Assembly (NCBI GenBank): GCA_963969365.1
Contig: OZ017751.1
Span: 2,604,001-2,668,000 of the forward strand
DNA from: Asterochloris sp. CNOR1
Taxonomy: Eukaryota; Chlorophyta; Trebouxiophyceae; Trebouxiales; Trebouxiaceae
Direction: 5' to 3'
DNA: 64,000 nt
Both the position numbers and the translations under genes were made by a program. The notes under the pieces were generated by a model, which did not search any database, had not been told where the DNA came from, and was given only the letters and a program-made list of their open reading frames with translations. Every line of letters starts with the position of its first letter. The stretch's first letter is position 1. Shown here piece after piece: positions 55,504 to 63,000 of the stretch.

Positions 55504-58500
55504 TCATGTGTCGCTGGCAGTTCTGAAGGCAGCAAGCTGGAATCCCCGCTTGTCCTCCACATCCCCCGTGGCCAGACGAGAGTGCCCTAGCAGCCTTGCG
55601 CGCTCCTTGAGGCGGTCAATGGCCAGGTAGGCGCCGATGGCCACCACAGCCCCGATCAGAGGGCCCAGCACGCCCACAGCCCACATTGTTCCAGAGCTGG
55701 GGCCCCGCTGCTCCTCGGTGCTGCTGGCCAGGCTGCTGCTGTCATCTCTGTCGCTGCGCTCAGGGCGCTTCCGGTATTGACTGCAGGCAGGGCCGCACAG
55801 ACAGAGATCAAAAAGTAGAACAATGGCAGTGCTGGGCCAGGTGACATCGCACTCAGAGCCCCTTAAGGTTGTGCCCGTACAGCAGCATAGGCAGCACATT
55901 GAAACCGCTCGTCAGCATTGCCTGAGAGGCTGCTGCTGTCATCGTGCTGTGCCTTGCTGGAGTCGAGCCCACAGTCCGCAGGTCATAAGGAGCATGTTTA
56001 CTGACGACTGTGGCGCCTCAGAGCACCATGCCGCAGGAACGAGGAGGATCTGGTTGTGCCTGCTCTGACTACCAGGGTGAGTTGCCCTTTAGCAGGCAGT
56101 ACATGAAGTTCGGTGGCAGCCCACAGGCATGGACTTGCCTGGGCAGGGGCAGCTGCATTGCGTTGGGCTTGGCAGAGATGCGGATGAGCCCCCTGTGATT
56201 GCCCTCGTCCAGCCCGGCATCAGTGGCTGTGGCATCGTACAGCAGTTCTAGAGGGGCCCAGAAGGGAGGGTAGCGATCTGCAGGCAGTGAACTGCCAGGG
56301 TCATCCTTGGCCAGGAGACAGCTGGCTGTCAGCGTGCATGATGCCAGACCCCATGAGCCAGTCTGGAAGTTTAAGAACCATATGGGAAGTCAGCTCTGCA
56401 ACAGCCAGGGGTACCGCCCTGGCCAGCTGTGTGTCTCACCAATGCACCCCTCTGTTGATCCACCCCTCTCTCAATCCACCCCTCAACATACAATCCACCC
56501 CTGGACATGCACTGGGGCTGAGCTGCCAGAGGTGCATGAATGAGCAAACAAGCTCCAAACAGTGTACATAGCATGACCTCCTAGCGCTCAGCAGCAAGCC
56601 CAGCAGACGAGGATGCCCTTGAGCAGGCATCACAAATTGCGTAGCACTGCTGTGTGACAGCTCACAGCGTGCGACGTCCAATACGAGCACCATGTCGCGA
56701 ACTGCATTGTAGGCTCCCAATGGAGAGTGGTGGCCACCGCCCCTGGACATCACGGTGTACCTGCAGACAGGGTTCAAGTGAGAAAAGGCAGGCAGCAATA
56801 GGCTGGCTGCCATGCACAACTGCAGCTGGCAGTGCTGATGCAGCAGACACAAGGCTGCTGGGGGATGCCTGTCACAGAGGCCACATAGTCGCCATGCTGT
56901 TGAGAATGCAGGTTGTGTGTTGGTGCGCCACACAGTGCTTGACACGCCTTATGGGCACCTGTCAAAATTCATTATCAGCATCTCGTCGCTGCTGGTCAGC
57001 GCGCTGGCAATGTATTCCCGAAACTCCTCCAGGCTGACTGCAGCAGGGTCTGTTTTCTGCATGACTGCCACCACGCCTGCACACAGGCACTTTAGGGTGG
57101 GATGGTGCGACAAGAGCTGGCTGCAGGGGCACTCAGGCGGCTATGCTGGCGTGGAGATCAGCGGCAAGCAGACCAGAACATGCGGAGGCAAGCACTAAGG
57201 GTTTTGCCGCTGACCCCACACACGGCTGCTTGCCAGAGCCAGCTGCAAGCTGATATGGGCAAGATGCTGCACGCTGCCATGGCGCACCTGTGTGGGCTGC
57301 TAGGATGCGCTGCAGAGTGGCCAGCCCAATGCCCCACTCCTCCACCTGCAGCACATTGAATCCGCTGCCAGGGCTCGCTGGTACACCAGGTGCTGCCCTT
57401 ATTCAGCTCACAATGGTGGTTGCACCGCTGGCATTGCTGATTGTCAAAGCAAACGCTCCACAGCCTAGTTCTGCTGTAGTTGTGCAGCACTAGGCTGTGG
57501 GAGCGTTCGCCTACAGCAGCACTAGGCTGTGGGAGCGTTCGCCTACAGCAGCACTAGGCTGTGGGAGCGAGCACTTCAAGGGTTGGCTGCACAGGTAAGA
57601 ATGCTCAAGCAAATCACATCACTGAGAGCTGAGTTTGCAGATTGGGATTGCAGGCGGTACAGGCGTGCCCACCTGATTCTGAGTGATCACAGTGTGGTTG
57701 GTCGTCTCAAGCATGTTTTGCTGGAAGAACCATGGATAGCTGCAGCACAGTGCAGAAGCTGCTTGACTTGAAGAGCCTTGAGAAGGGCATGATTTGGAGG
57801 AGCTGCACGCCGGCCACACAGCAGGGGCTACAATCTACTCATCGCACATCAGCTGCTTGGTGAAGTGATCAGAGACCCTGCTAAGGCATCAGCTCAAGCA
57901 CTGGCAGAGATGTGGGGTGCCACTCACCCGTCGAAGGCATAAACCTCAGGCTTGGGCACTGGCAGCGCATTCAGCACTGTGGCTGCTGCGGCTAGGCCAC
58001 ACCAATCCTGAGTGACCTGCACAAGGCTCCAGGAGCTTGGCCTAGTGAGGTCTGGCAGTGTACAGGATGGCAGTGTACAGGAGGGCCAGTAGGGGCCAGT
58101 GCGGTCGAGACCATCGCTGGCTACACTCAGCTAGACTGCAGATGGCAAGTGCCCTTCCATTGTCTCATTCAGGTGGCAGTCTGTTGTCTAGTTCTCTACC
58201 TCAAGGCATGTGGCGGTGCAGTCAGAGATGGGACCGGCTCAGCGTGTGTCTGCGTGTTGCAGCATCGTCTTGGCTGCACACGCTGACCTGGGTCTCCCAT
58301 GTCTGGATGAGGGCATTAAATGCCCTCCTGTTGGTGCAGTCCTGCAGGAGCTCCTGGCCAGCTGCTGTGTTGAGCCCAATGAGGGGGCTGGGCAGGCTGC
58401 TCAAGGCTGACACTCTGCTCATGCAGGCTGCAATCAAGAGGATCACCAGCCACCTAGGCATGCTCAGCCACATGACCACCGAAGATTCTCGGCAGGTATC

Positions 58501-60093: not shown

Positions 60094-63000
60094 CTACAGG
60101 CATGTGATTGCCTTTAGTAGCAGCTGGTCTACGTAGGACAATGAAATGAGGTCTGTTTCCTCAGCAGAGGCATCATCGCTTTTTGGCAGGTGGGCTGCCT
60201 CCAGTGGCAGCTGCTGCTGCGCCGGTGGCGGCAGCTGGCGCCTTGCGTTTCTGAATGGCATTCGCTCACAGATGTCAGCACCTGCCCAGCTGCGCCTCTG
60301 AAAAGAACTGCAGCGACCCACAGATCCCACACAGGGGCCTACAGTGATTGCTCCAGCACTGGCTGGCGCCTGGGGAGTGACAGCCCCATTGTGAGGCAAG
60401 TCCTGATACATTCATACAGGCAATCTACCACGCTTGCCTGGCTGCGGGTGTCCTGTACTTGCAGGCAGTAACAGAGCAGCACCCCCACTGGCTGTGGACT
60501 TGGTGGCCGAGAAGACTGGCGTGCCATGGTGAGCCGTTGCCTAGGTGCAGCCCACATCAAGTCCTTGGAGCCTAGCCACAAGAAACCCAATACAAGTAGC
60601 AACACACCACACATTCTTTTGGGACCCGCGACCCATAGGAGTCGTCCCGTAGCTGCACAAACATACTTATCCTACCTGTAACCTGCCAAGCAGCCAGCCT
60701 CAAAGCAAGCCACCAGGCAACACCCGCCTTGTTAGCGCCCATGTCCCCTCAGCATTTGGTGGCACAAAAGGCAATATGTGGCAGCACATCCAGATGCCCC
60801 CAGCCTATGAGGCTGGCTACAAGCATCAGAGCAGCCATACTCTGTACAAGCCACAACAGGACATGGCCCACCTTGCTGGCGCCCGCGGCCCCTGAGGAGT
60901 CGGTGGCGCGGCTGGCAGCCCCCGCCTTCTTGCCTCCCCCTTTCTTGCGCTCCTCCCGCTCTGCTGCATCAAAGTCCTCGTTTTCCTTCTCCACCAGGCG
61001 AATGAGGGTGTCGCACCGCCGCATCAGCTCCTGCAGGCAGCTCACAGACAGACTGGGCCCATGCACCATGGTCTGCCTGCTGCTGCAGCCATGTTGTACG
61101 CTTTGGCGGGGCCATGACAGTGATTGCCATGGGGGGTGTCGCATTGTCGCATGAGCCCCTGGAGGCAGCATAGGAGCAGACTGAGGCAGCACAAAAGCGG
61201 CACTTCTCCCTTGGCAGATCAGTCCGTTGCAGCTCCTGCCAGTCCCCACTCAGCAATTTGGGCTGGGTGCCCACTATCCAAATGCTATGGCTGCCATGCT
61301 GTGCCTTTGGGTACAGGCCTGGCACCTACTGCTGCTAAGCCACCAACAGGAGGCATGTGAGGAAGAAGGGGTGCAGTGCTGCGCGTCAGCTCATCCAGGC
61401 AGCACAATGGCAGACTGATGCAGCGCGCAAGGAGTGCGTTGCATGTGCATGCCGCCTGTGCAATGTGCGTTCAGCCCACAGAGGTCAGATCCGGAGGAGG
61501 CATACGCAGTAGTCATGCCGCAAGCTGGGTGCGAGTCAAAGGTCCCCACAGGTAAGGAGGGCAGGCCCTCAGCCCACCATTCAAAGCATCGCTAACACCA
61601 CTGGACAGTACTGCCCAGCTGCGGGCTGCTCTGCCAGCTTGGGATGCGCGCTCCCTAGCAAGACAAAGGTGCACTGCATGTGGCATCCAAGACAAGGGAT
61701 CTAAAGGTATGCCCAGGCCCCTGTTCCTGCTGCCAAGCTCTCCCAAGTCACACATGGAGCCTGGGACCCACCTGCGGGGTCCTGGACTTGAAAAACCAGT
61801 CAAATCTGAAGCGCCAATGCTCCCGAATGGCTGCCTTCAGCTCGTCCCATTGCCCGTAGCCCAGCGTGTGGATCTGGCAGAGGATGAAGCGGTCCTCCTC
61901 CTCAGTGTACGCCTTGCCCTTGTTGGCGCCATACATGATCTTCAGTTCCTGCAGATGGGGAGCGCAGCAGGGCTGGAGCCCATCCTTGACGACTGCAGTG
62001 CGGCTTGAGCCAGCTCTAGCAGAGCCACCACGCCACACACAGTCCAGCCTGCTGACACCATGGAGGGTGGGAATGGCAAGAACAAGAGGGGCCGGCAAGC
62101 CCCTGCTGACTGCGTGCCGGACTGGAGGAAGTCTCCTGGAACAAAACATGTCAGCACTTGCTGCACGACATGCTGCCAGCCTTTGCAGCATGCTGCGCAC
62201 GCAGGCGTGCCACACATGCATTGTTCCTTCTGGCAGCAAGCATCTGAACAGAGCAGTCAATTTGCACAGGCAACCCCCACCTGGTGGGGGTTCTTGTAGC
62301 GGTTCATCTTGCTGGCGATGGCATTCATGATGTCAGTCTGCCGCTGGATGCGGGCCTCTCCACCCTCAATATTTTTGATGTGCTTCTCCCAGTCGTTGAT
62401 GTCCTTGTGCCGCTTCCAGAACACCTTGCTGTACGCACGCACCTGCAGCAGCACTTGCTGCTGAAAGTTGACTTGCTCAACTGCCCCTGTGAAAGCTCCT
62501 GCAGTGTGGCAGCCTACACCTGGCTGCCTAGAGAGACACAGAGAGGTGTTGATGCCAGACGTTTCAGACTGGCCTGCACTGCAAGCACGCACCCCCTTGG
62601 CACAGATGTAGTGCTGTGCTTGTCACCGTCACCAGGGACACGGTGCAGGCTGTCCATCTGAGGCTGCTTATGGACCTATTGACATGCTTCATGCTGAGCA
62701 GCACACGTCCCTCGGGCTGCACCGTGCTGACGCAGCCTCTGGTACAGGCATGTCAGCAAGACAAGCTCTTAGCACCTTCCCCTCTGTCTTGCCCTCAACC
62801 TGACATGCGACATCGTACATGCCTTCCCCCAGGCTTCTCCTTCCAGGTCAATCAGCCTCTGGGCACCTCAGGACACCACAGAAAGCAATGTGCTGCAGCC
62901 CTGCCAGCCTGCCCACCTCCTCCTCTGTTTTGCCCTCAACCTCCCGCGCCACGTCCGACAGAGCGTTGCGCCCATACTTGGTGCACGCCCGTACGAAGGC

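Follow-up and report, generated by a model that had tools for sequence, protein, structure and literature searches.

The question raised by the phytochelatin synthase (PCS)-like gene of the green alga Asterochloris sp. CNOR1 is whether its product is held in a membrane and, if it is, on which side of that membrane the active site would lie. The gene was assembled by hand from raw sequence in a 64,000-nucleotide stretch of DNA (hereafter the window) and the assembly was verified by script; the spliced model runs on the minus strand from 58473 to 55504, with eight exons comprising 342 codons and a stop. Exon 1 (58288..58473, start codon at 58473) is followed by exon 2 (57928..58016), exon 3 (57673..57739), exon 4 (57288..57345), exon 5 (56959..57076), exon 6 (56666..56760), exon 7 (56139..56277), which contains the end of the domain, and exon 8 (55504..55780), which encodes a polar linker, a helix, a basic tail and the stop. 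The interval 55504-56280, in which a preliminary description had placed a membrane-anchored PCS, holds only exons 7 and 8 of this gene. Six of the seven introns are of the GT-AG kind, and the last (55781..56138, minus strand, predicted from sequence) is GC-AG (AG/GCAAGT ... CTGCAG), with a donor that matches the usual form of GC-AG donors. Of the three frames of exon 8 only the one in the spliced phase is open, and the exon's position-specific GC (0.66/0.55/0.75) is like that of exons 1-7 (0.60/0.45/0.72); openness alone is weak evidence, because about 8% of random stretches of this length are open as well. When the last intron is retained the frame stops at 56069, and a transcript of this kind would give a soluble secreted form ending there.

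The 342-aa protein matches Pfam PF05023 over residues 26-224 (56219..58398, minus strand, interrupted by introns) with an E value of 6.9e-51, and its score of 172.9 bits against a curated cut-off of 24.9 places it within the family (peptidase family C83); in the PDB it matches Nostoc Alr0975 (E 2.1e-30). By alignment with Alr0975 and bacterial relatives the catalytic residues are Cys68 in exon 2 (57999..58001) and His183 (56730..56732) and Asp201 (56676..56678) in exon 6, all on the minus strand and all in invariant alignment columns. The preliminary description had reported that this triad is complete, which is correct, yet all three residues lie outside 55504-56280. Six residues before Cys68 there is a Gln that aligns with a Gln of Nostoc Alr0975 and that we take to be the oxyanion Gln. 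The mature protein has only two Cys, Cys46 and Cys68, and the stretch from Cys68 to His183 contains no further one.

In the available text of Ferrari et al. 2024 (PMC11314372), algal and cyanobacterial PCS are divided into group 1, which is short and bacterial-like and has Asn ahead of the catalytic Cys, and group 2, which is plant-like with Glu or Asp at this place, four extra Cys and a C-terminal region; Trebouxiophyceae are given there with group 2 only. The three group-1 profiles score the Asterochloris protein at 159.9-190.3 bits, as against 123.2 bits for the group-2 profile, and the protein has neither the E/D before the Cys nor the four conserved Cys of group 2, which carries no export signal, while its own start resembles one. 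The Asn of group 1 is also absent, since Thr stands four residues before Cys68; of the 24 named group-1 rows from proteobacteria, 13 likewise have Thr there, so that the Asn rule is not general for group 1. These residue counts, and those given below, refer to the named-phylum rows of a reduced 104-row set (25 cyanobacterial, 24 Pseudomonadota and 3 Myxococcota) and to 19 group-2 rows. On these sequence features the protein resembles group 1 (the "N" or half PCS), and would be termed group-1-like where the Asn rule is regarded as binding.

Comparison with characterized and named relatives follows the same lines. Alr0975 (NsPCS; PDB 2btw/2bu3/6tho) and the group-1 half PCS have, as here, one domain with the same triad and no Cys-rich C-terminal domain, and relatives carry a leader, as the Asterochloris protein is predicted to do. 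The stretch from the catalytic Cys to the His is free of further Cys in all 49 named rows of cyanobacterial and proteobacterial half PCS that were counted; the residue four before the Cys is N in 24 of the 25 cyanobacterial rows and T in the algal protein. Plant-type PCS, including AtPCS1 and the second PCS of the same algal genome, share the domain family and the triad, and differ in having E or D four residues before the Cys (18 of 19 rows), three to five Cys between Cys and His (17 of 19 rows, the countable ones), no leader (0 of 21) and a long C-terminal region.

This second PCS (L005:2207-4926, on contig C18; seven exons joined by hand) has no leader, carries the CC and CxxxC cysteines and is placed inside the group-2 clade (clade support 99), with profile scores of 303.0 bits for group 2 and 134.0-146.0 bits for group 1. 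In a common alignment the introns of the two algal genes share zero columns, with one same-phase pair two columns apart, a pattern that would fit separate origins of the two genes without proving them. It had been proposed earlier that the last exon of the PCS-like gene replaces the expected Cys-rich C-terminal domain; because the bacterial-type and plant-type genes are two separate genes, no such domain has been "replaced", and loss of the Cys-rich domain was likewise rejected, given the likeness of the protein to a group that lacks one and the separate plant-type copy. The model of the contig C18 PCS reads QFSMQDEPAYC up to the catalytic Cys, with Met, seven positions ahead of that Cys, in place of the Thr that is phosphorylated in AtPCS1; this site adjoins an exon border, and the hand-made model may be wrong there.

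Other algal group-1 PCS have been described from extremophile green algae, diatoms, a red alga and Mamiellales, one example being CaPCS2 of Chlamydomonas acidophila, an alga in which, as in Asterochloris, an intron-containing PCS of bacterial type exists beside a plant-type PCS (PMC9265389, PMC11314372). The catalytic Cys70, His189 and Asp207 of CaPCS2 are near Cys68, His183 and Asp201 in position, and its 380 aa, with Cys70, leave room for a signal peptide and a C-terminal helix (PMC9265389). In the available text of these two sources no mention of a signal peptide or membrane helix in algal group-1 PCS was found, the comparison being one of descriptions (PMC9265389, PMC11314372).

With regard to the membrane, two hydrophobic segments of the Asterochloris protein have to be considered. 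It starts with MWLSMPRWLVILLIAACMSRVSA (residues 1-23; 58405..58473, minus strand), a predicted signal peptide that by eye looks like a textbook one for the ER, its cleavage site being chosen by eye as well, with an 11-residue Kyte-Doolittle (KD) mean of 2.89; it stands immediately ahead of the domain, in the same position as the leader of many bacterial homologues. The top 19-residue KD means, about 2.1, lie at residues 285-305, within a predicted transmembrane helix at residues 284-305 (55618..55683, minus strand), and a second peak of 2.03 is at residue 9. The 15 residues ahead of the C-terminal helix carry a net charge of -1 and the 15 behind it +3, and a tail of 37 residues follows; the last exon does encode a linker, a hydrophobic helix and a basic tail as had been stated. 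One N-glycosylation sequon is present, at N106. The topology call draws on hydropathy, charge and homology: a signal-peptide-like start directly before the domain means that the enzyme part should be lumenal, and the leader, the helix at 284-305 and the charges (+3 vs -1) together make type I the simplest topology. In hydropathy and charge the protein has the marks of a type I membrane protein, namely a signal peptide, one later helix and positive charge on the C-terminal side, and its catalytic domain is therefore predicted to be lumenal or extracellular, with the 37-residue tail in the cytosol.

The membrane in question may be that of the vacuole, as the preliminary description had suggested by way of example, with the difference that the active site would then be inside the vacuole and not on its cytosolic face. 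The tail contains ERARLL (residues 310-315; 55588..55605, minus strand), which fits the EXXXLL endomembrane sorting pattern of tonoplast proteins; it is suggestive only, and as a motif of this type arises in 7.9% of shuffled tails, the vacuole is preferred to the cell surface only as a lean. Algal protein targeting is hard to predict in general (PMC11314372).

Whether a leader and a C-terminal helix are known elsewhere in the family was addressed through a scan of bacterial and archaeal genomes, from which the best 80 of 538 relatives were taken; these loci are therefore no random sample. Most of the 80 have a hydrophobic leader right before the domain. An 11-residue stretch with KD of at least 1.8 precedes the domain in 106 of 113 non-group-2 proteins and in 0 of 21 group-2 proteins. 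The split was drawn from 149 distinct domain segments, less 15 with a length below 180 aa; some of the sequences counted are nearly identical, and in some of the proteins the leader may instead be a membrane anchor at the N-terminus. The group-2 labels in this count were given to 19 proteins from the tree and to six names by hand, all others being treated as group 1, odd long rows included, and hydropathy was taken from stop-to-stop frames, so that some stretches may precede the true start. Among the seven rows below the threshold, L040 is cut by a contig end and L038 (leader hydropathy 1.48, under the 1.8 threshold) and L159 are signal-peptide-like by eye, while L143, L100, L162 and L138 are not. 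From their sequences, then, the non-group-2 bacterial relatives look to be mostly exported. Five Myxococcota PCS (L105, L108, L109, L111 and L115) have a hydrophobic stretch well upstream of the domain, which is maybe an N-terminal anchor.

The complete order of leader, domain, linker, helix and RR/basic tail is found in three of the best 80 of 538 loci, all from Myxococcota: Polyangium fumosum (L020), Polyangium sp. y55x31 (L038) and a Deltaproteobacteria MAG (L017). Their helices have KD19 values of 2.27-2.47, their identity to the algal protein is 35-38%, and their tails are shorter than its own. The two Polyangium proteins have T four residues before the Cys, as in the algal protein, where L017 has R; they also have two Cys between the triad Cys and His, where the algal protein has none. 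Outside these three Myxococcota loci the helix is absent from the best 80: in 76 of the other 77 the protein runs on for fewer than 19 residues beyond the domain match (one of them, L061, being cut short within the domain), and one has a helix-free tail. A profile check of L010-L177, in which 164 loci matched and four fragments did not, gave ten C-terminal hydrophobic stretches, those of L017, L020 and L038 and seven in group-2-labelled proteins. A PCS match was found in 32 of 329 genomes of Myxococcota, the phylum of L020, including those of L020 and L017, in 1 of 246 from the phylum to which L073 belongs (the L073 genome itself), in 12 of 398 of that of L082 and in 25 of 244 of that of L018, the L082 and L018 genomes included, and no further group-1 helix form was present among the loci from these scans of four phyla. 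Elsewhere, PCS relatives were matched once on viral contigs and in 20 plasmid records. The layout shared with the myxobacteria suggests that exon 8 belongs to the gene and is the best available support for this; exon 8 as a separate gene is disfavoured by its frame, its composition and the parallel bacterial layout, all of them features of sequence.

The origin of the layout is a different matter. In BLAST the best match of the algal protein is a helix-free Hyphomicrobiales protein (142 bits), ahead of L017 (140) and L020 (134), so that the myxobacterial parallel is not proof of descent; across the tree columns identity is highest to L020, at 39%. The full quick tree shows group 2 as a clade from which the algal protein is excluded (SH-aLRT 99), and the long branch of that protein, the three myxobacterial rows and group 2 share a fork (85) that has to be read with a long-branch warning, the branch measuring 1.55 in the full tree and 2.82 without group 2. 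When group 2 and five other long rows are left out, the algal protein groups with four picocyanobacterial rows (34/34, bootstrap unsettled). A clade of the algal protein with the myxobacterial helix forms gains no support and is not rejected either (AU p 0.344), this clade having been named for testing only after the layout and the first tree were known.

Three other accounts of the protein have to be weighed against an anchored enzyme facing the lumen. It may be a soluble exported enzyme, with the GC-AG intron kept or exon 8 outside the main transcript and an end near 56069 that leaves no anchor. Intron retention does keep the frame open to 56069, and an end soon after the domain, with no helix, is the rule among the bacterial loci (76 of the best 80 of 538, and one more with a helix-free tail); against this, the spliced phase of exon 8 gives an open frame, its base composition is like that of coding sequence, the donor has the usual GC-AG shape, and the helix and basic tail after the domain are those of L017, L020 and L038, all of which makes a soluble product unlikely.

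The remaining two accounts keep the helix and change the compartment. In a tail-anchored protein the main domain stays in the cytosol and a signal peptide is absent; a tail anchor is what the preliminary description had put forward. The C-terminal helix with its short tail is real, and with the three myxobacterial parallels it upholds the membrane anchor itself, while the signal-peptide-like exon 1 was overlooked. A strong signal-peptide-like N-terminus where many bacterial relatives carry one, a 37-residue tail that is long for the class and a positive charge on the C-terminal side that agrees with a domain in the lumen and a tail in the cytosol make a cytosolic PCS tethered in this way very improbable, and on the evidence of exon 1 it was rejected. 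Targeting of the N-terminal stretch to a plastid or mitochondrion, with the enzyme in an organelle membrane, is improbable as well: there is one Arg in the first 8 residues, the 11-residue core with its KD of 2.89 and the V-S-A site have an ER-type look, and transit peptides are less hydrophobic. In its favour are the predicted mitochondrial signal of a Schistosoma PCS (PMC3561135) and the difficulty of predicting algal targeting (PMC11314372).

The company that exported PCS keep in bacterial genomes bears on what a type I, lumen-facing enzyme might do. On a Pantoea plasmid (L182:5354-8584) an exported-type PCS is located between genes for DsbB and gamma-glutamyltransferase (GGT); this row is near ATP-grasp and amidinotransferase genes. 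With the single Pantoea GGT as query and flanks of up to about 3 kb, GGT was found beside PCS in 10 of the 80 loci (best 80 of 538), all within the 16 loci ranked Nostocales (L018, L019, L023, L024, L027, L034, L041, L065, L067 and L090), divergent or downstream on the same strand, the match in L041 coming in two pieces. More GGT-flanked cyanobacterial PCS loci appeared in the scan of the phylum of L018, some of them the same genes again, and a leader-like stretch is present in all 14 GGT starts examined (ten from Nostocales and four from that scan, with at least one repeat). No GGT was found in the flanks of the remaining 70 loci of the best 80, including the three myxobacterial ones, nor beside the 25 group-2-labelled loci, for which less flanking sequence was covered (mean locus length 3.5 kb); among eight annotated plasmid loci, two of them group 2, GGT is beside PCS only in Pantoea and in none of the other five non-group-2 loci. 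Exported group-1 PCS and GGT in Nostocales are thus likely to form a pathway for extracytosolic glutathione. In one cyanobacterial genome (G1042:C1:1780784-1781247; L172, L175) the PCS match is fragmented, with an in-frame stop in one piece, and is near a GGT match; it is perhaps a decaying copy.

The host alga has GGT matches on contigs C15 and C8. A Pfam search of 10 long frames of the 64-kb window found no glutathione link among the neighbours of the PCS-like gene; one frame has a clear domain and another has only weak, sub-cut-off beta-propeller matches. Upstream of the PCS-like gene on the same (minus) strand there is an exon at 61751-62332 with a SLIDE domain (PF09111, E 1e-23), which we take to be part of an ISWI-type chromatin remodeller gene.

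As to chemistry, PCS have been reported to use their triad to cleave glycine from glutathione; the cyanobacterial and Schistosoma enzymes are active without added metal, Schistosoma PCS removes Gly from glutathione S-conjugates, and Nostoc PCS makes short phytochelatins only (PMC3561135, PMC11314372). From this reported chemistry and the GGT gene company we infer a lumenal deglycinase of glutathione or its conjugates, followed by GGT; the splicing of the last exon and the targeting, substrate and partner of the protein are all of this inferred kind, whereas the open frames of the gene model, the family, the triad, the two hydrophobic segments, the presence of two PCS genes and the bacterial parallels are direct observations. 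The reading that we favour, and hold to be probable, is that the gene encodes a PCS-like cysteine peptidase of group-1 type, a type I membrane protein that would remove glycine in the lumen, with phytochelatin synthesis in the cytosol left to the plant-type PCS. The signal peptide would bring the catalytic domain to the lumen of the ER, and the C-terminal helix, followed by a short basic tail in the cytosol, would anchor the protein in the vacuolar membrane, in some other endomembrane or at the cell surface. A gamma-Glu-Cys acyl-enzyme would form on Cys68, with release of glycine, the candidate substrates being glutathione, glutathione S-conjugates and metal-glutathione thiolates; the acyl group would pass to water or, less often, to a second glutathione, which would give short phytochelatins. 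An exported gamma-glutamyltransferase might complete the breakdown, while the plant-type PCS would handle metal-induced phytochelatin synthesis in the cytosol.

A wider picture, more tentative and open to real doubt, is that the two kinds of PCS are divided by space, group 2 being cytosolic and group 1 exported and sometimes encoded beside GGT, and that the algal copy is an anchored, lumen-facing form, probably vacuolar, that would trim or extend glutathione-metal and glutathione-conjugate cargo once it has been transported, with a layout that came maybe from a myxobacteria-like anchored form. What separates groups 1 and 2 was asked by Ferrari et al. 2024, with localization beyond their reach in the available text (PMC11314372).

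The PCS-like protein is a new layout within a known family, and as an observation this layout is real; among the literature matches listed, from a search that lay mostly outside subscription papers, none describes a PCS of this kind that is exported or anchored in a membrane. Its interest is raised by the export pattern of group 1. Phytochelatin synthesis has been regarded as cytosolic (PMC9265389), the usual view being that phytochelatins are transported into the vacuole after synthesis, and a lumen-facing PCS would add a second site for glutathione and metal-thiol chemistry. The export pattern could also explain why half PCS have been described as metal-insensitive enzymes that make short phytochelatins only, and if group-1 PCS are extracytosolic glutathione degraders, cytosolic assays would be testing them in the wrong compartment.
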